DNA of 32,769 nt, from positions 1 to 32,769 of the forward strand of contig CAMDHE010000048.1 of assembly GCA_945898095.1 (NCBI GenBank), in the 5' to 3' direction. Made by a program: the position numbers and the translations under genes. Each line of letters starts with the position of its first letter. Positions within the stretch are counted from its first letter, which is position 1. Shown here piece after piece: positions 2,247 to 27,834 of the stretch. The notes below the pieces were generated by a model. It saw only the letters and a list, made by a program, of their open reading frames with translations. It had not been told where the DNA came from and searched no databases. Source of the DNA: Roseateles toxinivorans. Lineage in GTDB: Bacteria > Pseudomonadota > Gammaproteobacteria > Burkholderiales > Burkholderiaceae_C.

Positions 2247-2276
2247 TTGACGCCCTGAAGCATTACTGCATAGAAT
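2247..2276 (+). promoter_or_regulatory. Candidate sigma70 promoter of the secreted-protein gene
   Basis: TTGACG (2247-2252) and TAGAAT (2271-2276) are separated by 18 bases, close to the sigma70 consensus. Transcription would start near 2283, leaving a leader of about 65 bases before the ATG at 2348. Weaker alternatives are TATAAA near 2190 and TATGCT at 2117. Confidence 0.5.
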
Positions 2277-2347: not shown

Positions 2348-3736
2348 ATGAAAAAGTTCACTATCAAGGCAGTCGCGGTTGCGATCGTGTCGGTTTGCGG
2401 ATCAGCTGCATTTGCTGGCTCAATCACTGCTCCGGCAGCTGATGCAGCTGCGACCAAGTATGCGGTTGAAGGCTTGATCAACACCACCGACCTCACTTCA
2501 GGTTCGACGGTCGTTTATACAATGGGTGTTACACGTACGGCCGCTCAAGATTTCACGATCATCATGACGCCTTCGGCTGGCGCAACATTCACGGCAGGCT
2601 ACTGCGCTACCACATTGCCTGTTGGCGGCGGTGCTGGTGCTTTGGCTGCTACGGTCAAGCGGGCGAGCGCAACCGAATGCGCTTATGAGATCGACGTTAC
2701 GGCTGCTACAGATACGACGACAACGCTGACTTTTGCTGCGCCAGTGATTGATGCTCACACGCTGGCAACCGCTGGCAATTCAGTCAGCGTTTCGCTCAAT
2801 CTGTGGGACTTGGGCGAGACCGCCCGTATCGACAACAGCAGTGCGGTAACCCGCATGATCATGCTGTCGGGTAATGCTCTGTCCATTACCGCTGCTGCAG
2901 ACACCGCGACCGTTGCGAATGTGAATCACGCTGCTGGCCCGTTGTTTGGTTTCCTGGCTAACGCAACGGCTCCGGCCGACACTGCAGCTGTGGCCACTGC
3001 ACGTTTTGTTGTGAATAACAATAGCGGTGCGACGACGTACAGGACCGCTGACGGCGCTACGAATTGGGACTTCAACTTGCATGGCACTTCGATCGCCGTG
3101 ACCGTTGCGGGTACTAATTTCACCGGCGTTGCATCGGCTGCTGTGGTACCTCCTGCTGGTGGTGCTCCGGTAGTTACAGTTGGCGCCGCTGCGGCTACCT
3201 TCTCATTGCTGCCAGCCAATATTGTTGGTGGTATTGGTGCTTACAACGTCGATGTGTCGATGACGTCGGCCCAGACCTCATCACTTGGAACGAGCCGCGT
3301 CTTTGGCGTATCGGCTGTTGGCGATGTTATCATCGGCGCTGACGTCACGCTGGCTGGCAATGCTGCTTGGTGGACTTGGTCTGCCAATGCGATCCAGTTG
3401 ATGACACCGTACATGTCGACCGATGCAGGTACAGGCGTGCTGACCCGCTTCTTCTTCCAGAACACGGGCCCAGCCGCGACCTACACCGCTACATGCCAAG
3501 CTGAAACTGGCAAGACTGTGACGGCTGGAACTGCTGCATCAGGCACATTGGCTAATGGTCAGACCGTGATCGATGCGAAGAATGTTTGCTCGTTCAGCAC
3601 CGGCATCCGCGGTTCGGTGACGTTCACGATCAATGCGCCGGCAGGGAACATCAAGGGTAACTACAACCTTGGTTTCAACGGCAATTCTTCGACGTTCGTC
3701 CCGCTTGAGCGTCCGTACGCAGCTGGCACGTACTAA
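2348..3736 (+). CDS. Secreted Ala/Thr-rich beta protein, candidate surface-layer protein
   Basis: The 462-residue product has a Sec signal peptide (MKKF..., hydrophobic core at 8-19, likely cleavage after AFA at 21-23). The mature protein is rich in Ala, Thr, Gly, Val, Ser and Asn, poor in Lys, and made of alternating beta-type segments. It has only four Cys, at 86, 111, 383 and 414, which suggests two disulfides. The C-terminal part (about 345-440: MTPYMSTD, TRFFFQNTG, then a Thr/Gly-rich stretch) recalls the C-terminal module of Slr4-type gammaproteobacterial S-layer proteins; this is from memory, not a search. The gene has its own promoter and strong terminator, and its codons favour GCT, GGT and GTT more than its neighbours, which suggests high expression. 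A T2SS operon starts 125 bases downstream, a natural exporter. It could instead be another secreted structural protein; no enzyme motif was seen. Confidence 0.6.
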   Translation: MKKFTIKAVAVAIVSVCGSAAFAGSITAPAADAAATKYAVEGLINTTDLTSGSTVVYTMGVTRTAAQDFTIIMTPSAGATFTAGYCATTLPVGGGAGALAATVKRASATECAYEIDVTAATDTTTTLTFAAPVIDAHTLATAGNSVSVSLNLWDLGETARIDNSSAVTRMIMLSGNALSITAAADTATVANVNHAAGPLFGFLANATAPADTAAVATARFVVNNNSGATTYRTADGATNWDFNLHGTSIAVTVAGTNFTGVASAAVVPPAGGAPVVTVGAAAATFSLLPANIVGGIGAYNVDVSMTSAQTSSLGTSRVFGVSAVGDVIIGADVTLAGNAAWWTWSANAIQLMTPYMSTDAGTGVLTRFFFQNTGPAATYTATCQAETGKTVTAGTAASGTLANGQTVIDAKNVCSFSTGIRGSVTFTINAPAGNIKGNYNLGFNGNSSTFVPLERPYAAGTY

Positions 3737-3738
3737 TC

Positions 3739-3761
3739 AATCTTCAGCTTCATTGAAGATT
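3739..3761 (+). terminator. First of two tandem hairpins after the secreted-protein gene
   Basis: AATCTTCA (3739-3746) pairs with TGAAGATT (3754-3761) across a seven-base loop. It has no T-run of its own; it may protect the mRNA 3' end or help the terminator just downstream. Confidence 0.5.
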
Positions 3762-3763
3762 CA

Positions 3764-3787
3764 AGGGCGCCTTCGGGCGCCCTTTTT
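3764..3787 (+). terminator. Strong rho-independent terminator
   Basis: AGGGCGCC (3764-3771) and GGCGCCCT (3776-3783) form a perfect 8-bp GC-rich stem closed by the stable tetraloop TTCG, followed by a run of T (3783-3787). It separates the secreted-protein gene from the T2SS operon. Confidence 0.9.
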
Positions 3788-3860
3788 CATGTCTGCAGGT
3801 ATGGAATAATCAGTAAGCCAATGAATGCAAGTTCAGCGTTCGGTATTCCGCAATTCAAAT

Positions 3861-4316
3861 ATGACTATTTCAAATTTTGTTGGCAGGCCTCGCCAATCGC
3901 GGGGTTTCACCCTGCTGGAAATGCTGGTCGTGCTGGTTATCATCGGCCTGCTTGCCGGCCTAGTCGGGCCGCGCTTGTTCAGCAAGGTCGATCAATCCAA
4001 GGTCACAACTGCCAGCACACAGATCAAGTTGCTGCGAGGTGCGGTGGAGAATGTGCGGCTTGACATTGGCCGCTATCCGTCGGTCGAAGAAGGCTTGAAT
4101 CTTCTGATCAAGCCGCCTGCAGACCCGGCGCTGGCAAGCCGCTGGCGCGGGCCCTATCTTGAAGATGCCGTGCCGCTGGATCCCTGGAACAAGCCCTACC
4201 AGTACGCGGTGCCAGGACAGGACAGCCATGGGTTTGCCTTGTATTCATTCGGCTCCGACGGGCAGCCCGGCGGTGAAGGCGATGCCAAGGACCTTGGCGT
4301 TTTACCGGTTCAGTGA
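3861..4316 (+). CDS. gspG: T2SS major pseudopilin GspG
   Basis: The 151-residue product has a short basic leader ending in RG, then FTLLEMLVVLVIIGLLAG. This is the type IV prepilin peptidase site (G|F, Glu at +5) and the N-terminal helix. The C-terminus has the calcium-site signature of major pseudopilins (SFGSDGQPGGEGDAKD), and ProLeuAspProTrp with downstream Tyr matches the family core. It forms the shaft of the inner-membrane pseudopilus that drives substrates through the secretin. The start is uncertain: ATG at 3861 gives a 15-residue leader, while an in-frame ATG at 3825 would give 27; neither has a good ribosome binding site. Its stop overlaps the GTG start of gspH. Confidence 0.93.
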   Translation: MTISNFVGRPRQSRGFTLLEMLVVLVIIGLLAGLVGPRLFSKVDQSKVTTASTQIKLLRGAVENVRLDIGRYPSVEEGLNLLIKPPADPALASRWRGPYLEDAVPLDPWNKPYQYAVPGQDSHGFALYSFGSDGQPGGEGDAKDLGVLPVQ

Positions 4317-4729
4317 AGAATCCGCAGCGCGCCGGGCAGCAGGGTTTCACCCTGCTTGAACTGTTGGTCGTGATGGCGCTGCTGGCGTTGAGCGCCGGGG
4401 TCGTGGCACCAAAAGCCAGTCGCTGGCTGGACGCGGTTCAAACCCGTGGTTGGCGCGCCGACCTGAAAGTCCGGATCGAGTCACTGCCTGTGAAGGCCTT
4501 TCTGTCTGGTGAACCATTGACCGTCGACGTCGCCAAGCTGCAAGAAGGGCTGCAGGGTCAAGCCGATGGTACCGAGTTGCGACTGCGCACGCCATTGCGC
4601 TACGGCGCCAGCGGCCTCGCAGCGGGCGGACGACTAGAGCTAAGGCAGGGCCGGGTCAGCGAAAGCTGGCTGATCACACCGGTGACTGGCCAAGTGCTTG
4701 TTGAAACAGCAGATGCAGCTCAGCGCTGA
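4313..4729 (+). CDS. gspH: T2SS minor pseudopilin GspH
   Basis: The 138-residue product starts at a GTG overlapping the gspG stop. Its leader KNPQRAGQQG is followed by FTLLELLVVMALLALSAG, a prepilin peptidase site with Glu at +5. The rest is short and variable, as usual for GspH. In the family it joins GspI, J and K at the pseudopilus tip. The assignment as H rather than another minor pseudopilin rests mainly on order (G-H-I-J-K) and length. Confidence 0.85.
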   Translation: MKNPQRAGQQGFTLLELLVVMALLALSAGVVAPKASRWLDAVQTRGWRADLKVRIESLPVKAFLSGEPLTVDVAKLQEGLQGQADGTELRLRTPLRYGASGLAAGGRLELRQGRVSESWLITPVTGQVLVETADAAQR

Positions 4730-5165
4730 ACGTCAGCGCGGCTTCGGTCTGCTGGAGGCTATCGTCGCCCTGGTGATCCTGGGCACGTCCGGCTTGATGG
4801 TCTTCACGTGGATCAATCAGAATCTGCAGACAGCGACAAGAGTCAAGGATGCCGAAGCGCAGGCGCAACTGCAATTGGAAGCGCAGTCCTGGCTGGCGAG
4901 TCTCAACCCGGCGCTTGCGCCCGGTGGCGAAAAGGCGGTCGGCAGTTTGCGGCTCAGTTGGCGTAGCGAACTGCTTGAGCCGATGCGCGACGAGTTCAAT
5001 CAGTGGGGGCACCTCGCGCCGCGATGGCAGCTCGGGCTTTACCGGATCCATGTGCAGGCCATGCGGGTTGATTCCGGGCAGCGAGTCGAATGGCGGCAGA
5101 TCGCCGCCGGTTGGAAGCTGAAGTCCGGGTTTGCCGCGCCCGCCGACGAGTCGAGGTCGCCTTGA
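4713..5165 (+). CDS. gspI: T2SS minor pseudopilin GspI
   Basis: From ATG 4713 the product is 150 residues: leader MQLSAERQRG, then FGLLEAIVALVILGTSGLMV, the form typical of GspI (G|F, Glu at +5, 'EAIVAL'). An in-frame TTG at 4698 could add five residues, but the ATG is preferred. It overlaps the end of gspH by 17 bases and its stop overlaps the gspJ start (TGATG). GspI nucleates the I-J-K tip complex in characterised systems. Confidence 0.88.
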   Translation: MQLSAERQRGFGLLEAIVALVILGTSGLMVFTWINQNLQTATRVKDAEAQAQLQLEAQSWLASLNPALAPGGEKAVGSLRLSWRSELLEPMRDEFNQWGHLAPRWQLGLYRIHVQAMRVDSGQRVEWRQIAAGWKLKSGFAAPADESRSP

Positions 5166-5800
5166 TGTCGCGCAGACCGTCGCCTGGAGCGCAGGGCTCG
5201 TCCGGTTTCACACTGGTTGAAATGCTGGTGACGCTGGTCATTCTCGCCATGATCTCGGGCCTGCTCTGGCAGGCCATGCAGCAGATCGGGCGCATCGAAG
5301 GCGTCATGCAAAGCGCGGGTGTCGAATCGCAACGCCAGGTCGTGCGGCGCGAGTGGCTGCGCAGCCTGCTTGAGTCGGCCCTGGCCGGACAGTTGAACAC
5401 AGAGCCGCAGTTCAGCGGCGATTCGCAAGGCTTGCGCCTGGCAAGCGCCGAGGCGCCCGATATCCCAGGTCTTGGCGCCGGCCTGGTGCAACTGAGACTC
5501 AAGCGCGATGAACGGGTGCAGCGCAACGAATTGCTGATCGGACCGGCGGTGCCGGATACGGCAGTTGCCGAACGCGTTTGGACCACTTTGCTCGCTTGGA
5601 CCGGACCGATGGCTGGATTCAAATATCTGGACGAAAAGGGCTCCTGGCTGGAGGCATGGCCGCGCCCGGGCGTGGCGATTCCAGGCCTGCCCGTTGCCGT
5701 ACTGATCGAGGCCGGCGATGAGGCCGGTGGGCCGCTGATTGCCGGCATCGCTGTCACCGAACCTGCGCGCCGTCGACGCATCGATTGGGAGCGCCAATGA
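5165..5800 (+). CDS. gspJ: T2SS minor pseudopilin GspJ
   Basis: The ATG at 5165 overlaps the gspI stop and gives 211 residues, usual for GspJ. The leader (MSRRPSPGAQGSSG) precedes FTLVEMLVTLVILAMISG, with Glu at +5. A longer frame upstream would put 25 Arg-rich residues before the leader and is unlikely. The body includes the family-like MQQIGRIEGVMQ helix after the membrane segment. It is part of the pseudopilus tip with I and K, and its stop overlaps the gspK ATG. Confidence 0.88.
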   Translation: MSRRPSPGAQGSSGFTLVEMLVTLVILAMISGLLWQAMQQIGRIEGVMQSAGVESQRQVVRREWLRSLLESALAGQLNTEPQFSGDSQGLRLASAEAPDIPGLGAGLVQLRLKRDERVQRNELLIGPAVPDTAVAERVWTTLLAWTGPMAGFKYLDEKGSWLEAWPRPGVAIPGLPVAVLIEAGDEAGGPLIAGIAVTEPARRRRIDWERQ

Positions 5801-6822
5801 GGCCGGTCCGGCGCCGGATCGGACGGGCGAACCGGCAGCAGCGCGGCTATGTCCTGTTGATGGTGATCACGACGCTGGCCGTGATTGCTTTTGTTGCGCT
5901 GCGATTCGCCGAGCGGATCGACTTACTGCGCAGCAATGCGCTGGGATTGCGCGACTATGCGGCGGCGCGGGTCAGCGCATCTGGCGCACAAGCCGCAACG
6001 CTCTATTGGATGGCGACCCGCCCGGTCATGCCCAATGGGCATGGCGAGGCACTTGGCGCTCTGCATGAGGACGGCAGGATCTATCGGCTGGAAGATGGCG
6101 CATTGGTCAGCGTGCAGGATCAACGCGGCCTGCTGTCGGTAAATGCGTTGAACCGGCCGGCGTTGCTGAATTTGCTGATTCAGGATGGCGTCGAGCCCGT
6201 GCGCGCACAGGCCTGGATGGACGTGCTCGAAGACTATATTGACACCGATAGTTTGAAACGCCTGAATGGTGCCGAGCAGCCTGAGTATGCGGCGCTGGGT
6301 TTGGCTGCGCCGCGCAATGACTGGTTGCTGAGCCTGAGTGAATTACAAAATATGCCCCTTTGGCGCGACGACCCCGAGCGCTTGGCGCGGCTTTCGCGTC
6401 GGCTCAGCGTGGCGATTTCAAATCACTTCAATCCGAATACTGCATCGCCTGAAGTGCTGCGGGCAATCTTTCCGGCGGCGGCACCTGAGCAATTGGACTT
6501 GCTCTTGACCCTGCGCAAGGGCGGCCTGTTGAGCAGCGGCGGCTTCGCCGCGCGCGCCACCGGGCTAGCAATGGATCGCGAAGACTATTGGTTCCTGCCA
6601 GGTTTCGAGACCCGGATGACCGTCTGGGCGCCAGGTCTGCCGAGAGCGATTGAGTACAATGCGCGAGTCACTCCAGCGGGTACGGTCGGGCCATGGGTAT
6701 TCACCGAAAAGCACAATGCGAGGCGCCCCAGTCAAAGCAATGAACCCAGCGCAGCGCTTACATTCCCTCTTGCGCTTGCTGCAAGCGGGCCATCCTTCCC
6801 GGCGAGCGCTGCTGCTCGGTGA
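5797..6822 (+). CDS. gspK: T2SS tip pseudopilin GspK
   Basis: The 341-residue product has a basic leader ending QQRG and then YVLLMVITTLAVIAFVALRF. As in other GspK proteins, the usual Glu at +5 is absent (Met here), the pseudopilin expected to cap the tip. The large globular part has the GspK marks: DQRGLLSVNALNR, DWLLSLSELQNMP and NHFNPNTASPEVLRAIFP, the last being a helix-hairpin-helix-type region. The ATG at 5797 overlaps the gspJ stop. Its 3' end overlaps gspL by about 80 bases if the start chosen for gspL is right. Confidence 0.88.
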   Translation: MRPVRRRIGRANRQQRGYVLLMVITTLAVIAFVALRFAERIDLLRSNALGLRDYAAARVSASGAQAATLYWMATRPVMPNGHGEALGALHEDGRIYRLEDGALVSVQDQRGLLSVNALNRPALLNLLIQDGVEPVRAQAWMDVLEDYIDTDSLKRLNGAEQPEYAALGLAAPRNDWLLSLSELQNMPLWRDDPERLARLSRRLSVAISNHFNPNTASPEVLRAIFPAAAPEQLDLLLTLRKGGLLSSGGFAARATGLAMDREDYWFLPGFETRMTVWAPGLPRAIEYNARVTPAGTVGPWVFTEKHNARRPSQSNEPSAALTFPLALAASGPSFPASAAAR

Positions 6823-7960
6823 TCGCTACGAGAGCCCTGCGTCGCGCGCGTTTGGTGCGCAGGTCGTCGTGCTGGCGCGCAGCCGCTGTCGGATCAAATG
6901 GTTTCGGCTGAATACCGTTCCCGTAGCTGAACGGCTTGCTGCCTTGCGCATGCAAGCGCTTGCTTGGCGGCCTTTTGACAACTGTGCATTCGCGCTGGCT
7001 TTGCGTGGCGATTCCGGCATGGCTCTGGCTTGGGACGATGAGCGCGCGCGCCAGAATCTACTTGATGCCGGCTGTGAGCCGTTGCGCTGTCGCCTGGTGC
7101 CTGAACCAATGCTGCGCCAGGCGGGCAGCGACGGCGCTCGCCTGCTGCGCTGCACTGAGGGTTTCGAGGGGCAAGTCTGGCGCGGTGGCTGGCTGTGCGC
7201 CAGTCGATGGTGGCCGGTAGCACCCGACGCACAGGAATGGCGTCTGCTTCTGCACGCTGGCGCTGGAACCGTCTCCGATCTGCCGCAGGGTGAATTCTCT
7301 GCTCTACAGAAGGGAATTCACCCTGCGGCGGAGCAGGCGCCTTGGCTCAACAAGCCCTGGGCCGCGCTGCAGGGCATGGCGGGTGACACCGGACAGATTT
7401 CGGGCATCGAGAATCGCGTGGTCGGCATAGGCGCGCTCGCGCTGCTGGTTTGCGCTGGCGCAGCAGGGCGCCAAGCCTGGGATGTCGATCAAGGCATCGG
7501 GCAACGGCGCCAGGAGATAGCCGCATTGCGTGAGTCTGCGGGGGTGGTTCTGGCTAGCCGGGACCAGGCGCTGGCGAAGGCTGCGCTGGCCCGACAAATG
7601 GCCACTTGGCTGGCCGAGCCTTTGCCGATCGAGGTGATCGTGCATCTGCATGACGTGCTGGGCAGGTCGGGCGTTCAACTCAAGGAGATGGATCTGAGCG
7701 GCAGCAAACTTCGCATCGGGCTGCAGCTTTCACCCCAAGCAAGCAGGGCAGCTATCGTGCGCGATTTGCAGGCTGGCAACTGGTTCAAGAACGTGGCTGA
7801 GGTCAGGTCCGAAGGTGCGGGTGGTTTGGTGGTGCTGGAGATGGTCCTGGATGGCTTGCGTCCGCCGCCGCTGCAAAGCGCGGCCGTCTCACAATTGGCC
7901 CCCTCAGCGGCGCCCGCTTTTGCGCCGCCTTCGGCATTTTCTACCGGAAGCAACAGATGA
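6740..7960 (+). CDS. gspL: GspL-like T2SS inner-membrane platform protein
   Basis: From ATG 6740 the product is 406 residues. A cytoplasmic domain (1-225) precedes one membrane helix (226-244, VVGIGALALLVCAGAAG), a coiled-coil-like stretch (250-290), a ferredoxin-like periplasmic domain (296-370) and a Pro/Ala-rich tail. This is the GspL layout: the cytoplasmic part should recruit the GspE ATPase and the periplasmic part should pair with GspM. The cytoplasmic domain is weakly conserved and I see no sharp family motif, so the call rests on order and topology. The start is uncertain; ATG 6716 is an alternative and both overlap gspK. The stop overlaps the gspM ATG. Confidence 0.75.
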   Translation: MNPAQRLHSLLRLLQAGHPSRRALLLGDRYESPASRAFGAQVVVLARSRCRIKWFRLNTVPVAERLAALRMQALAWRPFDNCAFALALRGDSGMALAWDDERARQNLLDAGCEPLRCRLVPEPMLRQAGSDGARLLRCTEGFEGQVWRGGWLCASRWWPVAPDAQEWRLLLHAGAGTVSDLPQGEFSALQKGIHPAAEQAPWLNKPWAALQGMAGDTGQISGIENRVVGIGALALLVCAGAAGRQAWDVDQGIGQRRQEIAALRESAGVVLASRDQALAKAALARQMATWLAEPLPIEVIVHLHDVLGRSGVQLKEMDLSGSKLRIGLQLSPQASRAAIVRDLQAGNWFKNVAEVRSEGAGGLVVLEMVLDGLRPPPLQSAAVSQLAPSAAPAFAPPSAFSTGSNR

Positions 7961-8601
7961 GCCTCTTGACGCAGGCCCCGATTGCCATGGGGGAATTCAG
8001 GGCGCAGTGGCAGGCTTCAACGCGATTGCGCTTGGGCGTCTGGCTGGTGCTGCTGATTCTTGCCCTCTATGGCCTGCAGTCCGGACTCGATCTGGTGGCG
8101 CTTCAGCGCGCGCAGGTCAAGACTCTGGACGGCGAGTTGAGCCGCCTGCGAGCGCTTGCCAAGGAGCGCGACTGGCCGGATCGCGCCGCGGAAGCGTCGC
8201 GGATGAATGCCGCGCTGGCCAGCATGGCATGGGCCGAAGCGGACTTGGCGCTGACTGAGGCGGCGTTCCAGGACTGGCTGCGCACGGTGCCGTCGCGGCT
8301 TGGGCTGAAGACGCTCGCGCTGACCATCGCTCGGGTTGAAGATGACAAGGGCACTGCCGGAACGGCCAAGCAGGGCGCGGCGGGGGTGCAAGGGCTGAGC
8401 GTGCCTGCGGGGTATGTGGCGCTGCGCGCGCGCGTCAGCTTCGAGTTGCAGCGCGCGCCGCTGATGGCATTCTTGTCAGAATGCGCGCGCAGCGAGCATT
8501 CTGTGGTGGTGGAGAGGCTCAGCTTGCGAGGCTTGAGTCAGCCTCCAATGGCGGAGCTGGATCTGCGAATCCTGGTCCGAAAGAGCGAGGTTGCACCGTG
8601 A
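7957..8601 (+). CDS. gspM: GspM-like T2SS inner-membrane protein
   Basis: The 214-residue product has a short cytoplasmic N-terminus, one membrane helix at about 26-43 (LGVWLVLLILALYGLQSG), a helical region (45-100) and a C-terminal domain where GspM folds as a small ferredoxin-like module (about 145-210, FELQRAPLMAFLSECARSEH). It should form the inner-membrane platform with GspL and the XpsN-like protein. ATG 7957 overlaps the gspL stop, and its own stop overlaps the GTG of the next gene. The call rests on topology, size and position. Confidence 0.78.
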   Translation: MSLLTQAPIAMGEFRAQWQASTRLRLGVWLVLLILALYGLQSGLDLVALQRAQVKTLDGELSRLRALAKERDWPDRAAEASRMNAALASMAWAEADLALTEAAFQDWLRTVPSRLGLKTLALTIARVEDDKGTAGTAKQGAAGVQGLSVPAGYVALRARVSFELQRAPLMAFLSECARSEHSVVVERLSLRGLSQPPMAELDLRILVRKSEVAP

Positions 8602-9041
8602 AACCTCGGGCATTCAAGTCAGCTGGCGCGGTCCTCGTGGCGGCTGTGTTGGGGTGGTTTCTGGCACCTGCTGAACAGATTGAAAAGCCGCTGGTGCAAG
8701 TGCGCCGCGATGCCTGGAATTTGCCTGAGCTGCCACGTAAACCTGATCAGGTGGGGCAGGGCTTGGCGGTGGTAACCTCGTCGATCTTTGGCGCCGAGCC
8801 ACAGATCGGCGCGGCTGCAACGGCGCCCGAGGACAATCGTTGGCGTGTGGCTGGTGTGTACCGCACCGGCGCAGAGCGCAAAGTGCTGATCAGCTTCCTG
8901 GCGCCAGGCAAGCAGTCTCTGAGGCTTGGCGTGGGTGATACCTTGCCGAGCGGGCACAGGATCACAAAAATCGATGACAGCGAGGTATGTATGCAGATAG
9001 GCAAAAAATCGTTCCGCCTGGGAGTCCAGTCCGGTGCTTAA
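8598..9041 (+). CDS. XpsN/GspC-like T2SS coupling protein, short form without PDZ
   Basis: From GTG 8598, which overlaps the gspM stop, the product is 147 residues. It has an N-terminal membrane helix (8-23, SAGAVLVAAVLGWFL), a Pro-rich linker and a small beta domain at about 80-143 (RWRVAGVYRTGAERKVLISF ... RLGVGDTL ... KIDDSEVC). That domain resembles the homology region of GspC, which docks on the secretin N-terminus. There is no C-terminal PDZ domain. Position between M and D matches xpsN of Xanthomonas, where XpsN is thought to play the GspC role. A longer upstream frame exists but lies inside gspM. Confidence 0.7.
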   Translation: MKPRAFKSAGAVLVAAVLGWFLAPAEQIEKPLVQVRRDAWNLPELPRKPDQVGQGLAVVTSSIFGAEPQIGAAATAPEDNRWRVAGVYRTGAERKVLISFLAPGKQSLRLGVGDTLPSGHRITKIDDSEVCMQIGKKSFRLGVQSGA

Positions 9042-11241
9042 GCAAACCTGGCGTTCAATCGAGCGTAACGCAGCCCCTGTGATATCAGCTCTTGCCGGCC
9101 GACCGGCCATGGCCGTCATGGCTGCGGCCTTGTTGAATGCCTGCACTGTTGTCAACCCCAGGATTCCGGTGCCGCTGCTGAGTCCGCCAGCGGCCGATGC
9201 GACTGCTGACGACCGCGCGTTGAACAAACTCGGGCGCGAATTGAAGGTGTTGCCGGCGCCCAAGCCGCCTGCGGCAGCGGCAGCAGCGTCGAACGGGGCA
9301 GGCGACGTACGCACCTTGGGCGGCGCTGGCGGCGAGGTGATCGCAGCGATCAATTTGCAGCAAGTGGCGCTGCCGGCTTTTGTGCAGATCGTGTACGCCG
9401 AGATCCTCAAGAAGACAGTGAATTTGCACCCCGCCGTTTCATCCCGGCAGGATCTCGTGACCTTCCGGACCGGTGGCGGGCAGACTGCAGAGCAGCTTGA
9501 AATTGCCATGCGCCTGCTGCTGAAGAGTTACGGCATCTCGGCCATTGATGTCGGAGGACTGATTCGGGTTGTGCCGGATAACGCCAACCTCGGCGATCTG
9601 CCGAGCATCCGCTATGGTGCGGCAATGCCCGATGTTCCGTTGCCGCTGCGGCCGGTCTTCAACTTGGTGCAGTTGGAGGCTGTGCGGCAGACCGATGTGA
9701 GCAACTGGTTGCGAACGATGTTCGGTGATCGTGTCACCGTTCAGGATGACGCAGGCCGCAACGCGGTGCTGATCAGCGGCAATCCTGACAACGTCAAGGC
9801 GGCTTTGGAGGCGATTGCCATCCTCGATCAGCCGGCGATGAAGGGTCGTGCCAGCATGGCGCTGTCTCCCGCCTATTGGTCAGCCGATGAAATGGCGCGA
9901 CGCCTTGCCGAGCTTTTAAGCGCCGAAGGCTATGCCGTGCACCCTGTCGGCCAGCCGATAACAGCTGGCGGGGTGCGTTTCCCGGTGATTCTGCTACCGA
10001 TATCGGCATTGAATTCGGTTTATGTCTTTGCCACCAATGACGCGGTTCTTGGGCATGTGACGAACTGGGCACGAACGCTGGACCGGCCGAACGAGCGCGG
10101 CATCGGCAAGAATTTCTTTTCGTACGCGGTCAAGAACAAGGACGCAGACTTGCTGGCGCAAACGCTGGACCGCATTCTGGCAGGCTCACGCAGCGCAACA
10201 GCAGGCGTGGCCGTGGCGCCCGCACAGAGTCAGGCAGTTGCAGCGACGAGGCTGACAGCGGTGGTGGTCGACAAGTCGACGAATACCTTGATATTCCAGG
10301 TCAACCCTGATGAGTACGGCGCGATCATTTCCTTGCTGCAGACGCTGGACCGGCCGACCAAGGCGGCGCTGATCGAGGTCACGGTCGCCGAACTTTCGCT
10401 GACCAACGACGCGCAACTCGGCGTCGAGTGGCTGTCCTCGCAGGTCGATAGCGCCGGGCGTACGAGTACGGCCGGAACCCAGGGTGGACTTTCTTTGGGC
10501 ACGGCCGGGTTCAATTACCGGGTTTTCAACGGTGCCGGTCAGCTCAGGGTGGCGTTGAACGCGCTGGCATCGAATAACCGGGCAACGATTCTGTCCAGCC
10601 CGCGCGTGATGGCGCGCAATGGCGAAACCGCGACGATTCAGGTCGGCCAGGAGGTGCCTATCATCACTAGCCAGCAATCGACAGGCATCGCCACCGGAAC
10701 AGCAACACAGACGGGCTTGTTGCAGACGGTCCAGTACCGCAGCACCGGCGTGATCCTCAAGGTCAAGCCGGTGATGCACTCTGGCGATCAGGTGGACCTC
10801 GATGTGTCGCAGGAGGTGAGCCAGGCTCTGGCGACTGAAACCGGCGTGGCGAGTTCGCCCACGTTCACGACGCGCAAGGTGGACACCAAGCTGACCCTGA
10901 AAAACGGCACGACCGTGCTGTTGGGTGGTCTGATCTCGGAGGATTCGGCAAGCGGCTCGGCCGGTATTCCGTACTTGAAAGACATTCCGCTGGTCGGCAG
11001 CTTGTTCAGCAAGCAAAGCCGCAGTGGCGGGCGACGCGAACTGATTGTGTTGATTACGCCCTACGTGGTCAACGATTCGCACGATGCCGAAACCATCACC
11101 GATTCTTTCCGGAAGTCGCTGGGCTCATGGGCTGGCGTGGCGCAGCCTGTTGAGAAGGCTGCTGGCAACGCAGTGACTCGGCCCGGCACAGCCAGTCCAC
11201 CACCGGCCAATGGATCGGCCACTGGAACGGCTGAGCGCTGA
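9034..11241 (+). CDS. gspD: T2SS outer-membrane secretin GspD (lipoprotein form)
   Basis: This 735-residue secretin starts at a GTG (9034) just before the preceding stop. The signal sequence ends LLNAC, a lipobox with Cys37, as in lipoprotein XpsD. A Pro/Ala-rich linker leads to N0 (about 105-190, NLQQVALPAFVQIVYAEI), further N domains (about 205-455), then the secretin barrel (about 470-690). The barrel has VGQEVPIITSQQS, a gate-region stretch, VLLGGLISED, IPYLKDIPLVGSLFS and RRELIVLITPYVV. A Gly/Pro/Ala-rich tail follows. It forms the outer-membrane gated channel. Its stop overlaps the gspE ATG. Confidence 0.95.
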   Translation: MLKQTWRSIERNAAPVISALAGRPAMAVMAAALLNACTVVNPRIPVPLLSPPAADATADDRALNKLGRELKVLPAPKPPAAAAAASNGAGDVRTLGGAGGEVIAAINLQQVALPAFVQIVYAEILKKTVNLHPAVSSRQDLVTFRTGGGQTAEQLEIAMRLLLKSYGISAIDVGGLIRVVPDNANLGDLPSIRYGAAMPDVPLPLRPVFNLVQLEAVRQTDVSNWLRTMFGDRVTVQDDAGRNAVLISGNPDNVKAALEAIAILDQPAMKGRASMALSPAYWSADEMARRLAELLSAEGYAVHPVGQPITAGGVRFPVILLPISALNSVYVFATNDAVLGHVTNWARTLDRPNERGIGKNFFSYAVKNKDADLLAQTLDRILAGSRSATAGVAVAPAQSQAVAATRLTAVVVDKSTNTLIFQVNPDEYGAIISLLQTLDRPTKAALIEVTVAELSLTNDAQLGVEWLSSQVDSAGRTSTAGTQGGLSLGTAGFNYRVFNGAGQLRVALNALASNNRATILSSPRVMARNGETATIQVGQEVPIITSQQSTGIATGTATQTGLLQTVQYRSTGVILKVKPVMHSGDQVDLDVSQEVSQALATETGVASSPTFTTRKVDTKLTLKNGTTVLLGGLISEDSASGSAGIPYLKDIPLVGSLFSKQSRSGGRRELIVLITPYVVNDSHDAETITDSFRKSLGSWAGVAQPVEKAAGNAVTRPGTASPPPANGSATGTAER

Positions 11242-12953
11242 TGCCGGACCCATACAGCATTGCGGGCGGTCAGTTGCTCGGTCAACTGCTGCTGGAGCGA
11301 GGGCTGCTGCGCGCTGCCGACCTTGAGGCCGGTCTCGGCTATCAGGCCGTGCATGGCGGGCGCCTAGGGGCTGTGCTGATGCGCATGGGGTCCATCACGG
11401 CCGACAGCCTTTATCCGGTGCTGGCCGAGCAGTTGGGTCTGGGCCTGGTGCGCGCTGTGGAACTTGACGAAGACGCGCTGCGGGCCGCGCTGGCGCTGCT
11501 CGGCTCGCACAGCCGCTATCTGCTCGATAGCGCAGTGTTGCCTTGGCAGGATGAGCATGGCGGCTGGCATATGGCAAGCGCCGACCCCTTGCAGGCCGAT
11601 CTTCGCGAGAGCATTGCCGAGCTCGCGCTTTGCCGCGATGCTGTCTGGCATTTGATGCCGGAGGCGGAGCTGGCGCAGTGGCAGCAGCGGCTGGCGCATA
11701 CCGATCTCGTGTCCCAGGCGCTCGACGTTCGCGCCCTGCGCGAACTTGCCGAAGACGCGCCTGTCATCGCGCTGGTCAATAACCTGGTTGCGCAGGCCGT
11801 AGAGGCGCGAGCGTCGGACATCCATCTGGAGCCGGGTGAGCGTGAATTCGAAGTGCGGCTGCGCATCGACGGCGTGCTGCATCTACGTCAAACCATGGGC
11901 ATGGATCGTTACCCGGCAGTGGCTTCGCGCATCAAGTTGATCGCCGGCATCGACATCGCCGAGCGTCGCCTGCCGCAGGACGGGCGCATTTCAATGCGAG
12001 CCGCCGGTACCGAAATCGACGTGCGCGTGTCCTCGATTCCCGCTGTGTTTGGTGAATCCATCGTGCTGCGCTTGCTACCCAAGCGCCGCGCCGATCTGTC
12101 CCTGGAGCGGTTGGGCATGCGCCCAGTGCAATTGGCAAGCTTCAGGCGTTGGCTTGGCATGGCCAATGGCCTGGTGCTGGTGACCGGTCCAACCGGATCT
12201 GGCAAGAGCACAACGCTTTATTCGGCGCTTGCTGCGACCAATGACTCCACGCGCAAGATCATCACCGTCGAGGACCCCGTCGAGTTCCGCCTGCCGCATG
12301 TGATCCAGGTGCAAACGCAGGCTGACATCGGCTACACCTTTGCCCGCGCGCTGCGCGCATTCTTGCGGCATGACCCGGACGTCATCATGATCGGCGAGAT
12401 CCGTGACCGTGAGACCGCCGAAATTGCGATCCAGTCAGCGCTCACCGGGCATCTGGTGCTGGCGACGCTGCATACCAACGACGCGTTGTCGGCCATCACA
12501 AGGCTGGTCGACATGGGGGTCGAACCCTTCCTTGTCGCTGCTGCCTTGCGTGCCGTGGTGGCACAGCGGCTGGTGCGCAGGCTGTGCGACAACTGTGCCA
12601 AGGCTGGCGATGCGCCGGCTGCGGTGATCGATGCAGCGCTGGCGCTGGCGCTGAGCGACGCGGCTGGAGACGGCATGGCGCAGGATGACCTGCCGCGCTG
12701 GCGGCGCCCGGTCGGGTGCCCGGCCTGCGAGCGCACCGGTTTTCGCGGCCGCATCGGCATCTACGAGATGTTGAGTCTTGGTACCGAACTCCAGCATGCT
12801 GTCGCTCAGGGCTTGACGATGGACCGCATCGAGGCGCTGGCCAATACCCAGGGCCGCCGTAGCTTGGCGCAAGAAGGCGCCATGAGAGTTGTAACCGGCA
12901 TGACCACGCTGGAAGAAGTGCTGCGGGCGACCGGCGGCGCTGGCGCCGACTGA
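11241..12953 (+). CDS. gspE: T2SS assembly ATPase GspE
   Basis: This 570-residue cytoplasmic ATPase powers pseudopilus assembly through GspL and GspF. An N1-type domain covers about 1-150. The catalytic part has SDIHLEPGEREFEVRLRIDG (PAS-like N2E region), Walker A GPTGSGKST at about 315-323, the Asp box TVEDPVEF, Walker B VIMIGEIRD at about 381-389 and the His box LATLHTNDA. A tetracysteine zinc module is formed by CDNC (about 449) and CPAC (about 493), as in GspE and PilB. ATG 11241 overlaps the gspD stop. The length and all motifs are normal. Confidence 0.97.
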   Translation: MPDPYSIAGGQLLGQLLLERGLLRAADLEAGLGYQAVHGGRLGAVLMRMGSITADSLYPVLAEQLGLGLVRAVELDEDALRAALALLGSHSRYLLDSAVLPWQDEHGGWHMASADPLQADLRESIAELALCRDAVWHLMPEAELAQWQQRLAHTDLVSQALDVRALRELAEDAPVIALVNNLVAQAVEARASDIHLEPGEREFEVRLRIDGVLHLRQTMGMDRYPAVASRIKLIAGIDIAERRLPQDGRISMRAAGTEIDVRVSSIPAVFGESIVLRLLPKRRADLSLERLGMRPVQLASFRRWLGMANGLVLVTGPTGSGKSTTLYSALAATNDSTRKIITVEDPVEFRLPHVIQVQTQADIGYTFARALRAFLRHDPDVIMIGEIRDRETAEIAIQSALTGHLVLATLHTNDALSAITRLVDMGVEPFLVAAALRAVVAQRLVRRLCDNCAKAGDAPAAVIDAALALALSDAAGDGMAQDDLPRWRRPVGCPACERTGFRGRIGIYEMLSLGTELQHAVAQGLTMDRIEALANTQGRRSLAQEGAMRVVTGMTTLEEVLRATGGAGAD

Positions 12954-12969
12954 GCTCAGAGCTGCCGGC

Positions 12970-14175
12970 ATGCAATTCGACTACAGCGCACGAGACCCTC
13001 AAGGTCAGGAGCACAAGGGCTTGATTGAGGCCGACGACGAGGGCGCGGCGATCCGCCAACTCGGCGCGGATGGCCTGACGCCGGTGCGGCTGGCGGCATC
13101 TGGCGCCAGCGCAGCCCGGCCTGCAAAGGTCTCGCGGCAGCGCGTCAGCGCAGCTGATCAGACCGTGCTGCTGCGTGAGTTGTCGACCTTGCTGGGTGCG
13201 GGTGTCTCGCTGGGGGATGCCTTGCCAAGCCTGGCGCAGGCCTATGCGGACCAGTCTCTGGGTCCGGCGATGAAGAGTCTGCACACCCATGTGCGCGGCG
13301 GCGGGCGCCTGTCCGAAGCGCTTGAGGATTCGCGCTTGCGCCTGCCGGCATTCGTGCTGGCATTGACGCAAGCTGGCGAGGCCAGCGGGCAGTTGTCAAA
13401 AGCGCTGTCCGAGGCTGCCGACCAGATGGAGCTTGATCGCAAAGTGACTGAAGAGCTGCGCAGCGCGCTGATCTACCCGACGGTGCTGGTGCTGGCGGGA
13501 TCGCTGGCAGTGTTCATCATCTTCGTTGGCGTGGTGCCGCGCTTCGCTTCGCTGATACGCGGCTCGCGTGCCAATGTCCCCGAGTTGTCGCGCTGGGTCA
13601 TCGAATCGGGTCTTTACGTGCGCACGCACCTGGGCGAGTTCGGCTTGGGCTTCGGCGCCTTGGCCGCCTTGATCGGCTATGGCGCGAGCCGTGAGGCCTT
13701 GCGCCACAGCGCGTTGCAGACCTTGATTAGAATTCCCGGCATCGGCCCCTGGTTGATCCAGAGCGAGATCGGGCGCTGGGCCACGGTGCTGGGCACCTTG
13801 TTGGCCAATCGCGTGCCCATCGTCGATGCGATGGGTATTTCGGCCCGCGTGTTGCGGCTGGATATGCTGCGCTCCGGACTGGAGCGCGCCGCGCGTTCGC
13901 TGCAGCAGGGTCAGACCCTGGCGACTTCGCTGGAGTCGCAGGGCTGGTTTCCGCCATCACGCTTGAACCTGATCCGCGTTGGCGAACGCTCGGGCGAGTT
14001 ACCCAAGATGTTGCTGGCACTGGGGCACAGCCAAACCGATGCGGCCCGGTTGATGCAACGCCGCTTGCTGACCTTGATCGAACCGGTGGCCATTCTGTTG
14101 ATCGGCGCGGTGATCGGCGTAGTGATGGTGGCGGTGATGATGGCGATTACCAGCTTGAACGCAGTGACGGTTTGA
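12970..14175 (+). CDS. gspF: T2SS inner-membrane platform protein GspF
   Basis: The 401-residue polytopic protein has the usual N-terminal stretch (QFDYSARDPQGQEHKGLIEA) and two T2SSF repeats (about 70-190 and 270-395). Membrane helices lie at about 165-190 (LIYPTVLVLAGSLAVFIIFV), 215-235 and 370-395. The family motif LTQAGEASGQLSKAL in repeat 1 is mirrored by IRVGERSGELPKMLLAL in repeat 2. It sits at the base of the pseudopilus and couples GspE to growth. It follows gspE by 16 bases and ends the operon; the next gene is convergent and stops only nine bases away. No prepilin peptidase (gspO) lies in this window. Confidence 0.95.
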   Translation: MQFDYSARDPQGQEHKGLIEADDEGAAIRQLGADGLTPVRLAASGASAARPAKVSRQRVSAADQTVLLRELSTLLGAGVSLGDALPSLAQAYADQSLGPAMKSLHTHVRGGGRLSEALEDSRLRLPAFVLALTQAGEASGQLSKALSEAADQMELDRKVTEELRSALIYPTVLVLAGSLAVFIIFVGVVPRFASLIRGSRANVPELSRWVIESGLYVRTHLGEFGLGFGALAALIGYGASREALRHSALQTLIRIPGIGPWLIQSEIGRWATVLGTLLANRVPIVDAMGISARVLRLDMLRSGLERAARSLQQGQTLATSLESQGWFPPSRLNLIRVGERSGELPKMLLALGHSQTDAARLMQRRLLTLIEPVAILLIGAVIGVVMVAVMMAITSLNAVTV

Positions 14176-14184: not shown

Positions 14185-15261
14185 TCAGGCGCAAGCGCTG
14201 ACAGCAATTGCTTGCACCTCGCGCAGCGCGTTCACTGCTGCTCTTGACGAAGCAGGTATTTCCCCTAAGTAGACTTCTGTCTTTACGACGCGGGTTCTTT
14301 CGATGGCTCGATGCAGAGACTCTGGTTTGAGTTTGTCTGCCAACCCCAGTGCCTGCATTACTCTTGAGACCTCGACCCCCGGTTGCTGCCGCAATGCTTC
14401 TTGCGCGCAGACCGAGAATTGATCAGGCCCGATGTTGGTGGCTGCCCAGAGCAAGGCGTCTGCACTGGCAAGCAAGGCCTGCGACAGGAATGCGTCCAGG
14501 CTTTCAGGGTCAGTTGCTGTCAACCCATGCTCGGCAAACATGGCACGCCACATCTTGCGGTTTGAATGAAAAATGTCCAGCGGGTCGCGCAACATCCAGA
14601 CGACCTTGGCCTGCGGGAAGCGTCGCAGAATCGCCTGCACCCGAAAGCTGTGGTTGGGCGACTTGAGAATCAGCCGGTTGTCTGCGTAGCCGCTGCCGGC
14701 TAGCACAGCACGCATGAATGACTCCCACGGTCGTAGCCATTGCGGGTTCTGCAGCCAGAATTCGGCATCCAGCATGGGTAGCATCTCCATGATCCGATGC
14801 GGCATCAGAAAGGCCCGGTAGGCGGATGGCTGGCCCAGCGCCAGCAAGGCAAATTCATCCTCCTGCGGCGAGTCTGCGCCCAGCGCAAGGCCATCCATCG
14901 GCCGGGCAATCCGCACCGTGCTGCGGCGTGCGCGCTCGGCGCCAGCCAGCCTGAACGCGCAGGCATCCATGCACTGCCAGGTCAGAGGCGTTGGCCAGCC
15001 GGTAGCAGCCGTCAGTAGTTCATGCATGACTGTCGTGCCGCTGCGCCAAGGCCCGAGGATCAGCAACGGTGAAAGGGGGTTTGGCGACGCCAATGTGGAG
15101 CTTGTTTGCGCCTCGCTAAGGCGCGCATTGATTGAACCCCAGCCGGCTTTCCAGGCCAGCGCGGCGCGCAAACGCCAATCCAGCTGCGACCACAGCGGAT
15201 CTTCGCGCAGCCAGCCCAGCAACTCGCGTGACATCGTCAGCGTGGGCAGGCGCGGCATCAT
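14185..15261 (-). CDS. PAPS-dependent sulfotransferase family protein
   Basis: The 358-residue product carries the 5'-phosphosulfate loop LILGPWRSGTTVMHELL at about 68-84 and the 3'-phosphate motif VVWMLRDPLDIFHSNRKM at about 210-227, both needed to bind PAPS. DSPQEDEFALL (about 130-140) fits the Sulfotransfer_3 subgroup. No membrane segment is evident, so it is probably cytosolic or peripheral. The acceptor is unknown; its setting suggests a glycan or lipid. The ATG at 15261 overlaps the stop of the upstream sulfatase-fold gene, so the two are translationally coupled; a second in-frame ATG is the next codon. Confidence 0.85.
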   Translation of the reverse strand: MMPRLPTLTMSRELLGWLREDPLWSQLDWRLRAALAWKAGWGSINARLSEAQTSSTLASPNPLSPLLILGPWRSGTTVMHELLTAATGWPTPLTWQCMDACAFRLAGAERARRSTVRIARPMDGLALGADSPQEDEFALLALGQPSAYRAFLMPHRIMEMLPMLDAEFWLQNPQWLRPWESFMRAVLAGSGYADNRLILKSPNHSFRVQAILRRFPQAKVVWMLRDPLDIFHSNRKMWRAMFAEHGLTATDPESLDAFLSQALLASADALLWAATNIGPDQFSVCAQEALRQQPGVEVSRVMQALGLADKLKPESLHRAIERTRVVKTEVYLGEIPASSRAAVNALREVQAIAVSACA

Positions 15262-17213
15262 GGCGTGCCGAACATCGCGCTGCGCTTGAGCTCGGCCTGC
15301 GCCAGCGCCGCTTGCAAGCGCAGACGCAGGCTTGCGGCGAGTTGTGGCGCGCTGGCCGTGAGATCGGTCAGCTCATGCGGGTCTTGCCTCAGGTTGAACA
15401 GCTCGCTGTGAGCTTCGGCCAGGTGCAGCACCAGTTTGAAGTCGCCGTCGATGATGGCGTAGTGCCCAGCGCGCAGCGGTTGGAAGCGGCTTTGGCGCTC
15501 CATCGCCATCGCGAATACCGGCTTGGCTGGCAAGGCGCCACCTTCGAGGGCCAAGCGCAGCGAGCGCCCGTCTGTGCTTGGCAGCGCCTTGGCACCGGCC
15601 AAGTCAACCAGTGTGGGCGCCAAGTCGGCCAGGCTCACAGGGGTGTCGATCTGCTGCGAGCTGGCTTGGTTGGGCAGCTTGACCACCAGCGGCACTTGCA
15701 GGACCGCGTTGTGGATCAACTCGCCGGCATGCCCGAGGAAGCCGCGCTCGAACGATTCGCCATGATCCGATGTGACGATGATCAGCGAGTTGGCAAGCCT
15801 GCCACGCGCTTGCAGTTGTCGCAGCAACTCGCCCAGGGCAAGGTCGGCGCCCATGATGCTTTCCTGATAGCGCAGCCGGTATTTGTCGATCCAGCTCTGC
15901 TGCGCGGCCGGGTACGGCCCCATGCCAATGAACTCCGACCAACGCTCGAGCGTGCCGCGCTGCAGCAGACTGTATTTGGTCGAAGGCGGGGGTAAGTAGG
16001 GATCGTGCGGCGGCAACGTATGCACCCAGATGAACTTCGGCTTGGCGCTGCTGCGCTCATCAAGCAGCGACAGCATCGCCTGGTATGCGTATTCGGCCGC
16101 ATAAGGGTGCTTTTCGCCATGGAGATAGACGTCTATCGTGTCGAGGAAGGGCACGATGGCCGAGAGCCAGAACGGCAAGGTGGTGTCGGGAAACACCGTC
16201 AAAGCTTCGCGCGGCTTGCTGCCCAGCGATGTTGAATCGGCGATCACATGCGAGTCGTAGCCGGCACCTGTACCGTGATGCCGAGGGCTGGCAAGCAGGT
16301 TGGCGTTGATCGAATGGGTTTCGTAACCGGCGTCGCGTAGCCGCTCGGCCAGCGCCCCGCTCTGCATTGGCGTGGCGACCTGTGCAACGATTTGCACGGC
16401 CCAATGGTTCCAGGGCAGGGCGCCGGTCTCCATCGTCGCCGTGCTGGGTGTCGTGAAATTGGCACTTGCGTAGTGCCTTGTGAAGCAGCTCGCCCGCTGA
16501 GCGAATTCCCTTAGATGCGGCATCAGGGTCGGGCCGGCCCCGCAGACGCGCGCATCGGGTTCGGCTAGCGTGTCGATGGAGATCAGGTAGATGTCGGGGC
16601 GCACGTCGGCCTGCGCAGCAACGGGATCATGCCCGCCAGCGCTGCCAAGCAGGAATCGAGGTGTTTCGATGGCGATGCACAGGCAGGCCAGCACGAAAAG
16701 CAGCTGCGCAGGGCGCCGCAGGCTTACCAAGTGGGAAACGACGAATGTCGTCAGACCGGTCAGGCTCATGCTGCGCATCAGCAGCAGTAGGCAGAGCAGC
16801 AGCAAGGCGCTGGCCAGCACCCGGCCGTGCACGCCGATGCTCAGGCCCATGCCAGACACCGCCTTGGCCCAAGCCCAGCTGCTGCCGGCCAACTGCCAGA
16901 TGCAGACCCACAGCGTCGGCACCAGAGCGATGGACCAGGCCAGCAAATCAGCCTTTACGGGCAGCATGCCGATGAGTGTGGACAGGCGGCGCAGCGCCGC
17001 AGCTGTTCCAGCCAGCAGACCGGCCGGAATGATCAACAGTATGTAGGCGAGGGCGGCGTCGCGCAGCAACTGCAGCGGCGTCAGGAAAGCGACAAAGGCG
17101 TCGAGCTGGCGCAGCAGCACAAGCGGCATCCAGATCAAACCCAGTGCGGCAAAGCTGCAGCTGAACATGGTCCAGCCGCTACGGGCCAACGCGACCGGCC
17201 CGCGCACCGTCAT
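15258..17213 (-). CDS. Membrane-anchored sulfatase-fold (alkaline phosphatase superfamily) protein with atypical nucleophile
   Basis: From ATG 17213 the product is 651 residues. About five membrane helices occupy the first 185 residues, followed by a periplasmic sulfatase-type domain: IYLISIDTL (metal Asp214), SDHGESF (Asp483/His484) and GHAGE (His495). The end has the sulfatase-like ELFNLRQDPHELTDL. At the nucleophile position the sequence is TTPST (254-258), not C/S-x-P-S-R, so the formylglycine precursor and the Arg are both absent. Thr nucleophiles are known in phosphoglycerol and phosphoethanolamine transferases (LtaS, EptA types) of this superfamily, so transfer rather than sulfate hydrolysis is plausible. 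Its ATG overlaps the stop of the small upstream gene. A longer frame would cross that gene. Confidence 0.82.
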   Translation of the reverse strand: MTVRGPVALARSGWTMFSCSFAALGLIWMPLVLLRQLDAFVAFLTPLQLLRDAALAYILLIIPAGLLAGTAAALRRLSTLIGMLPVKADLLAWSIALVPTLWVCIWQLAGSSWAWAKAVSGMGLSIGVHGRVLASALLLLCLLLLMRSMSLTGLTTFVVSHLVSLRRPAQLLFVLACLCIAIETPRFLLGSAGGHDPVAAQADVRPDIYLISIDTLAEPDARVCGAGPTLMPHLREFAQRASCFTRHYASANFTTPSTATMETGALPWNHWAVQIVAQVATPMQSGALAERLRDAGYETHSINANLLASPRHHGTGAGYDSHVIADSTSLGSKPREALTVFPDTTLPFWLSAIVPFLDTIDVYLHGEKHPYAAEYAYQAMLSLLDERSSAKPKFIWVHTLPPHDPYLPPPSTKYSLLQRGTLERWSEFIGMGPYPAAQQSWIDKYRLRYQESIMGADLALGELLRQLQARGRLANSLIIVTSDHGESFERGFLGHAGELIHNAVLQVPLVVKLPNQASSQQIDTPVSLADLAPTLVDLAGAKALPSTDGRSLRLALEGGALPAKPVFAMAMERQSRFQPLRAGHYAIIDGDFKLVLHLAEAHSELFNLRQDPHELTDLTASAPQLAASLRLRLQAALAQAELKRSAMFGTP

Positions 17214-26787: not shown

Positions 26788-26791
26788 GGCT

Positions 26792-27826: not shown

Positions 27827-27834
27827 GATTGATT

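Follow-up and report, generated by a model that had tools for sequence, protein, structure and literature searches.

A contig of Roseateles toxinivorans (CAMDHE010000048.1), analyzed here over its entire length of 32.8 kb (32,769 nucleotides; hereafter the window) and belonging to a 4.7-Mb genome, carries a gene for a 462-residue secreted protein followed by a series of type II secretion system (T2SS) genes and a group of polysaccharide genes. The protein encoded at 2348–3736 is quite probably a surface-layer (S-layer) protein, which would be exported by a dedicated T2SS and retained at the cell surface by the glycan that the adjoining genes produce. The locus bears on the matching of S-layer proteins to their exporters and glycan anchors in Gram-negative bacteria. 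A first-pass annotation had proposed a single region for array protein, exporter and anchor. The co-location of the genes, the divergent character of the T2SS, the co-occurrence of the glycan genes and the apparent exchange in one pair of genomes agree with this proposal, in which the lattice, the export route and the anchoring are inferred.

The window protein and its homologues in six named relatives, obtained from one scan of a named genome collection, constitute type A. The relatives comprise Pelomonas, Paucibacter, Roseateles, Inhella, a Methylibium metagenome-assembled genome (MAG) and a Burkholderiales MAG, and the closest named homologues are those of Pelomonas sp. Root1217 (63% identity), Paucibacter sp. 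DJ2R-2 (55%) and the Methylibium MAG (53%). As the first-pass annotation had anticipated, the homologues neighbor the T2SS genes: in all six relatives the gene is located directly 5′ of the gspG–F series, which has the same order (gspH of L020 rests on a 33% match). Apart from a fragment in L006, no homologue was found away from such a gsp cluster in these searches. The distribution of the protein is sporadic, with 3 of 150 genomes in the family and 2 of 18 in the genus containing it (the genome of the window is counted in each; the homologue-bearing genus-mate is G158). The order-wide search returned 3 of 349 genomes, namely the own genome and two weak matches, both in or near gsp gene sets. 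At the class level, a search with A1 recovered the own genome only (1/369), and a search with A4, run without a positive control, recovered none (0/369). No homologues were found among viral contigs, and the plasmid search gave no match for the window protein or for a protein of type D, described below.

The association extends beyond type A. Searching the family with the window GspD (E ≤ 1e-100) identified 18 of 150 genomes, three of them with type A and 15 others. The surroundings of the 15 non-type-A clusters were screened with a crude filter for long, Ala/Thr/Gly-rich proteins bearing a signal peptide. In its strict form the filter selected one candidate adjoining the gsp cluster in 12 of the 15 (the candidate of L055 runs off the stretch), and its relaxed form added a 13th at a stretch edge. 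Altogether, an S-layer-like candidate is adjacent to 16 of the 18 divergent T2SS clusters (3 type A, 12 strict and 1 relaxed), and the remaining two clusters are located on contigs that break off at 11.7 kb and 4.8 kb. Applied to ten control stretches, each from a different one of the 18 genomes, the strict filter gave a single match, a protein whose N-terminus looks membrane-embedded by eye. Type B consists of five proteins of about 470 residues, including that of the order-level genome G275; four of them are encoded directly 5′ of gspG, and types A and B match over their full length in profile comparison (hhalign E 7e-19). Types C and D are larger (555–659 residues), and their genes are located beside gspD or gspF. 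In L049 (6657–8195), a 512-residue protein with two cysteines and a weak match to types C/D is located beside another divergent T2SS. A single origin of type A may or may not apply: the type-A rows split in the free tree of concatenated G, K, D and E from 12 genomes, and forcing them into one clade costs 6.97 log units (AU p 0.042). With the same data, type B as one clade was rejected (p 0.0001).

The genes 3′ of gspF encode a convergent pair of a sulfotransferase and an alkaline-phosphatase-like protein, followed by wzx, glycosyltransferases, an RmlD-like protein and a FucNAc/QuiNAc-type block. Family matches from the sulfotransferase to the glycosyltransferases bear out the earlier statement that glycan genes follow the gsp set. 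A wzx close to that of the window is present in all seven type-A genomes and in three of five type-B genomes (G034, G007 and G030). Among seven genus-mates without the candidate protein, four have no wzx match and three have 22–25% identical ones only; the type-X genome G084 has a match at 26%. In seven of the ten genomes with a close wzx, the gene is found 3.2–3.5 kb past gspF in the same direction; it is inverted and 17 and 8 kb away in G871 and G873, respectively, and on another contig in G875. The sulfotransferase is present in 7/7 type-A genomes (in G875 about 7 kb beyond gspF) and in 0/4 type-B genomes at E ≤ 1e-3 within about 17–60 kb around each locus (the whole 47-kb contig for G107), the fifth type-B genome, G275, being left out of the count because its contig is 10 kb long. 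By our own arithmetic, such a distribution would arise by chance once in 330 cases (one-sided), although the genomes are related. In G034, a methyltransferase gene and a gene for a different enzyme of the alkaline-phosphatase superfamily instead occupy the 3-kb gap past gspF, with comparable frames in G007. Moreover, a gene for adenylyl-sulfate kinase, which makes the sulfotransferase donor, is found no more than about 11 kb upstream of the candidate protein in four of six type-A relatives; none was seen in G873 and G875 or in the four type-B stretches, and the contig ends of the window are too near for this check in the own genome. Because wzx and the sulfotransferase co-occur with the type-A protein, we count the glycan genes as part of the same unit as the protein and the exporter, to which, judging from these sequence comparisons, they appear to belong.

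The surroundings of these loci contain other recurring genes. Upstream of the S-layer gene of G870 (L121 2687–5507) are genes for an FAD-NAD(P)-binding protein, the adenylyl-sulfate kinase and a 239-residue protein. Of these, G871 and G872 share the kinase and the FAD protein, G874 the kinase and the 239-residue protein, and G875 the 239-residue protein. A gene for a CapD/WbpM-like sugar dehydratase, 62–80% identical to that of G870, borders many S-layer/T2SS loci including a type-D one (Table 1), which suggests that the loci share one common O-antigen-type site.

The extent of the unit is marked by a natural experiment. The genomes G870 (Pelomonas sp. Root1217, type A) and G030 (type B) have canonical GspD proteins that are 97.4% identical over 682 residues, and their loci occupy the same chromosomal site. 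Flanking the block, the two genomes share 87% DNA identity along 9.8 kb at one end and 82–89% along 6.6 kb at the other, with 94% identity over 14 kb further out, whereas within 317.4–342.7 kb of G870 there are patches of 68–74% identity only. A second variable patch is located at 302–310 kb of G870. At the protein level, wecB, wbjC and fnlA products are 90–93% identical between the two genomes, compared with 49–57% for gspD, E and F, 78% for gspG, 50% for wzx and 61% for rmlD, and the BLAST alignment of the two S-layer candidates covers 23 signal-peptide residues only. The differing block therefore holds the coat protein, the exporter and the genes of glycan assembly and decoration, which seem to travel together. 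Judging from this one pair, the block appears to have been replaced as a whole rather than to have diverged fast.

That the glycan genes are mere neighbors, the S-layer/T2SS block sitting in an O-antigen hotspot whose glycan has no part in holding the layer, is a serious alternative, which we consider possible but on balance rather doubtful. O-antigen loci are common insertion hotspots, the gene order is rearranged in Paucibacter and Methylibium, and wzx is on another contig in G875. The presence of the sulfotransferase in 7/7 type-A and 0/4 type-B genomes argues against this alternative, as does the G870/G030 pair, in which wzx, rmlD, the T2SS and the protein diverge together and the adjoining sugar-precursor genes do not. 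In addition, reassembly of the Delftia acidovorans layer required lipopolysaccharide (LPS), according to the part of the report drawn on here (PMC3110197). Beyond the linkage of glycan and layer, we tentatively propose a single exchangeable, serotype-like ‘coat-type’ cassette in the O-antigen locus, made up of the S-layer protein, a T2SS reserved for it and the holding glycan. Type A would rest on a sulfated glycan made by the cassette sulfotransferase, often with its own adenylyl-sulfate kinase, type B would rest on a differently decorated glycan, and strains would switch by swapping the whole cassette. This proposal is plausible, if not quite probable.

The candidate S-layer protein possesses a Sec-type N-terminus, MKKFTIKAVAVAIVSVCGSAAFA, with the cleavage site placed by eye before the following G. 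It is Ala/Thr-rich, and its mature part contains four cysteines (86, 111, 383 and 414) common to all seven aligned members, a fifth (17) being within the signal peptide. The AlphaFold model, built with seven sequences, is almost all-beta, with beta regions at about 25–183, 215–305 and 316–456, and is best at residues 31–150 (block means 75–92). The open reading frame, the alignment and the model thus agree with the first-pass description of a signal-peptide-bearing, Ala/Thr-rich, four-Cys beta protein. Invariant residues are frequent in the N-terminal (43/159) and C-terminal (29/150) regions and sparse in the middle (7/98), a pattern that would suit a conserved anchoring or lattice part combined with a variable exposed part. 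Of the separate promoter and terminator claimed earlier, the terminator is kept in all seven members. The promoter-like site is weak evidence alone, because five such sites per 15 kb were observed compared with 3.0 in shuffles; its TTGACG element is present in five of the seven (both elements judged by eye). The reported 125 bases between this gene and gspG apply if gspG starts at 3861, and the distance is 88 if it starts at 3825. The 5′ untranslated region (2276–2347) shows conservation between genera, as in L016 and L018 with TTCATGTTCCAACAATTTGTGGAGAATCCTTTA, and may stabilize the message.

Another protein of the own genome resembles part of the candidate. On contig C66 (L006 3211–5748), an 845-residue protein with a lipoprotein-like N-terminus (LLTACGGG) contains two copies of the N-terminal region of the S-layer candidate (about residues 55–175 by eye; 46% and 68% identical), both of which interrupt a repeat module at the same position. 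No full counterpart was found in 16 other genomes searched, and R. subflavus has the repeat. A possible role is docking into the lattice as an anchor or adaptor in the outer membrane; alternatively, the gene may have arisen by a chance fusion.

Several results weigh against the interpretation of this locus as an S-layer unit. The candidate protein has no match in Pfam (to E 1) or NCBIfam (to E 0.1), and PDB sequence searches with the window protein, A1 and A4 gave none. The mean pLDDT of the model is a mediocre 67.8, and the Foldseek matches listed are generic Ig-like adhesins and integrins with a query TM-score of at most 0.28; we therefore make no fold-based family claim. At this model quality, RsaA is absent from the best 50 of 1424 matches. 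By sequence, the protein has no counterpart among solved or named S-layer families in Pfam, NCBIfam and PDB. A charge count intended for a sulfate-binding face found none, and a basic face for a sulfated glycan is not evident because the protein is acidic overall. In addition, no wzx match was obtained in two type-B genomes, G107 and G275, the G275 protein is encoded about 4.6 kb from gspG, the match between type A and types C/D is limited to about 76 N-terminal residues (E 1.2e-5), and within six type-A genomes the distances of the protein do not correlate significantly with those of the linked GspD (r 0.25, p 0.23).

The lack of S-layer family sequence matches, together with Foldseek matches that are mostly Ig-like adhesins, pilins and integrins among those listed, could also indicate that the T2SS exports a non-crystalline surface protein, such as an adhesin or biofilm-matrix protein, instead of an S-layer subunit. 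We regard this as unlikely, since a single secreted protein is linked one-to-one to a separate exporter, is flanked in most or all of the members by a promoter-like site and a terminator belonging to its gene, and shares the layout of the S-layer loci of VapA, NpdA and Slr4, as far as the portions of their reports drawn on here describe them.

The exporter of the putative S-layer protein is a divergent second T2SS. After the terminator, the genes follow in the order gspG-H-I-J-K-L-M-(C/N-like)-D-E-F, which we take to resemble that of xps, the C/N-like protein being presumably comparable to XpsN. Pfam T2SSG, T2SSK, Secretin, T2SSE and T2SSF domains score above their gathering thresholds, identifying a T2SS in the broad sense, whereas GspD, GspE and GspF fall below the NCBIfam cut-offs (315.8 against 351.35, 526.1 against 630.25 and 277 against 424 bits, respectively), separating the set from the canonical T2SS. 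The complete T2SS core described earlier stands by position; it is weak for L, M and C/N, because GspL has no family match, the GspM match is sub-threshold and the C/N-like protein has a weak PilP match. The prepilin peptidase is encoded by a single copy elsewhere in the genome. The own genome contains a second gspD-E-F on another contig, which passes the cut-offs missed by the window copies, and also a PilQ-type secretin. Each of the 21 genomes tested has a canonical GspD (in G875 as two pieces), two genus-mates lacking the candidate protein among them. A tree of 42 secretins places all 21 divergent ones, among them that of G054 with no candidate in view, on one side of a branch with support 100/98. 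Across ten type-A and type-B genomes, the distances of the candidate protein correlate with those of the linked GspD (r 0.66, Mantel p 0.0002); for the canonical GspD they do not (r 0.10, p 0.26). Given the non-significant value within type A, it is mainly the contrast between types A and B that carries the correlation. That the canonical T2SS exports the candidate, the linked set serving other cargo or assembling a pseudopilus, is very unlikely: the canonical secretin is indeed at hand in all 21 genomes, but the divergent T2SS is sporadic, accompanies a candidate S-layer protein in 16 of 18 cases, and contains the secretin that the protein distances track over ten genomes.

In the mechanism we propose, the separate promoter and terminator would cause the S-layer gene to be made as its own short message. 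The Sec pathway would move the product to the periplasm, where each of the two conserved cysteine pairs is probably joined by a disulfide. From there, the neighboring divergent T2SS would export it by means of the pseudopilins G–K, processed by the single prepilin peptidase, the platform of F, L, M and the C-like protein, the ATPase E and the secretin D, leaving ordinary enzymes to the canonical T2SS. Outside, the protein may assemble on the cell and be retained by the surface glycan from the wzx/glycosyltransferase genes, decorated by the sulfotransferase and alkaline-phosphatase-like pair. The predictions for this locus are a single coat gene, a secretin dedicated to its product and a sulfotransferase that varies with the coat type.

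Table 1 Features of the locus (positions in the window unless a locus is named)
Feature	Position	Strand	Basis
Promoter-like site TTGACG-18-TAGAAT of the S-layer candidate gene	2247..2276	+	scores 10/12
Candidate S-layer protein (type A), 462 aa	2348..3736	+	homologues; no Pfam/NCBIfam/PDB sequence match
Intrinsic terminator between candidate gene and gspG	3763..3784	+	9-pair stem and T run
gspG	3825..4316 (start possibly 3861)	+	Pfam T2SSG, NCBIfam GspG above cut-off
gspH	4313..4729	+	prepilin motif; position and identity in relatives
gspI	4698..5165	+	prepilin motif; weak XpsI/GspI matches; counterparts in relatives
gspJ	5165..5800	+	prepilin motif; counterparts in relatives
gspK	5785..6822	+	Pfam T2SSK domains above cut-off
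gspL by position	6650..7960 (true start probably later)	+	no family match; 31-54% identical same-place counterpart in six relatives
gspM	7957..8601	+	sub-threshold XpsM/GspM match; counterparts in relatives
GspC/XpsN-like protein	8481..9041 (start probably later)	+	weak PilP match; counterparts in relatives
gspD secretin, divergent type	9034..11241	+	Pfam Secretin above cut-off, NCBIfam GspD below; separate clade
gspE ATPase	11241..12953	+	Pfam T2SSE; below NCBIfam GspE cut-off
gspF	12970..14175	+	Pfam T2SSF; below NCBIfam GspF cut-off
Sulfotransferase	14185..15261	-	Pfam Sulfotransfer_3; in 7/7 type-A genomes
Alkaline-phosphatase-superfamily (‘sulfatase’) enzyme	15258..17378	-	N-terminal hydrophobic segments; NFTTPST at formylglycine (FGly) motif position
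Wzx-like polysaccharide flippase	17452..19080	+	family match; co-occurrence test
Glycosyltransferase family 2	19077..20021	+	family match
WcaI-like glycosyltransferase	20018..21250	+	family match
RmlD-like reductase	21261..22136	+	family match
Two glycosyltransferases and WecB-type UDP-GlcNAc 2-epimerase	22151..25738	-	family matches
WbcJ-type UDP-sugar reductase, FnlA-like dehydratase, HisF/HisH-like pair, WbuX-type N-acetyl-sugar amidotransferase (FucNAc/QuiNAc-type precursor block)	25675..30399	-	
Acyltransferase and glycosyltransferase	30424..32749	-	family matches
CapD/WbpM-like gene bordering other loci	L057 6723-8483; L045, L046, L047, L048, L018, L020, L015		

The enzyme encoded next to the sulfotransferase was considered as a sulfatase hydrolase and rejected. 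FGly sulfatases have a CxPxR motif; the window enzyme has Thr at the formylglycine position in place of Cys or Ser and possesses N-terminal hydrophobic segments, both of which are also found in three aligned relatives. The alignment rows of L076 and L077, being translations in the wrong frame, were disregarded; long open frames occupy the same place in L076 (664 residues) and L077 (647 residues). The product may be a transferase or a Thr-dependent enzyme rather than a sulfatase. At the other end of the window (365–1300), a C-terminal piece of glycerate 2-kinase (MOFRL domain) is followed by short broken frames, which resemble IS3-type transposase remnants by eye; Pfam gave no confirmation.

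The arrangement has counterparts in known S-layer loci, described here from parts of the published reports. In Aeromonas salmonicida, the A-layer locus (vapA, sps, wbsalmo) places the S-layer gene beside a T2SS set within the O-antigen cluster, with LPS serving as the tether of the layer (PMC4483657), in agreement with the precedent invoked in the first-pass annotation. The wbsalmo locus also holds WecB and a sulfotransferase-domain protein, as the window locus does (PMC4483657). With a surface protein gene, a T2SS and O-antigen-type genes in one locus, the window shows the A-layer type of organization. The likeness drawn here concerns the content of the locus. The gene order differs, as the Aeromonas T2SS genes begin with E-F and vapA is last, and O-antigen export is of the ABC type, compared with Wzx in the window. 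NpdA of Delftia and Paracidovorax is likewise a betaproteobacterial secreted protein without a known domain beside gsp genes, an adjacency found in many Beta- and Gammaproteobacteria (PMC10765051) and also shown by the candidate gene. The P. citrulli genome with npdA has two gsp clusters (PMC10765051), as the own genome has two sets. However, NpdA is larger (52 kDa mature in P. citrulli, PMC10765051; ca. 61 kDa in Delftia, PMC3110197), and the resemblance of the putatively NpdA-like types C/D to the window protein is confined to an N-terminal stretch. The ortholog table of the NpdA report, in the part drawn on here, does not include Roseateles, Pelomonas, Paucibacter, Inhella or Methylibium, the corresponding main text does not mention O-antigen, polysaccharide or LPS, and its authors defer the need for the linked T2SS to future mutational studies (PMC10765051). 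Slr4 of Pseudoalteromonas tunicata, an S-layer protein with a Sec signal, also adjoins T2SS genes (PMC7821379, PMC11094555, PMC12153261); it belongs to a marine Enterobacterales family predicted to be beta-helical after RsaA (PMC7821379), whereas the window model matches Ig-like beta domains. Literature searches on S-layers in these genera, with sulfotransferases and with O-antigen clusters gave no description of this locus among the matches listed. Compared with the canonical Gsp/Xps T2SS, the core components are recognizable in the window, and the set differs in its sub-cut-off GspD, GspE and GspF and in the separate clade of its secretin. On this reading, the window locus is a new subfamily and locus variant of an S-layer protein with a dedicated T2SS in an O-antigen-type locus, distinguished from the known loci by a coat type that is apparently matched to glycan decoration and by a block that seems to be exchanged as a single cassette.

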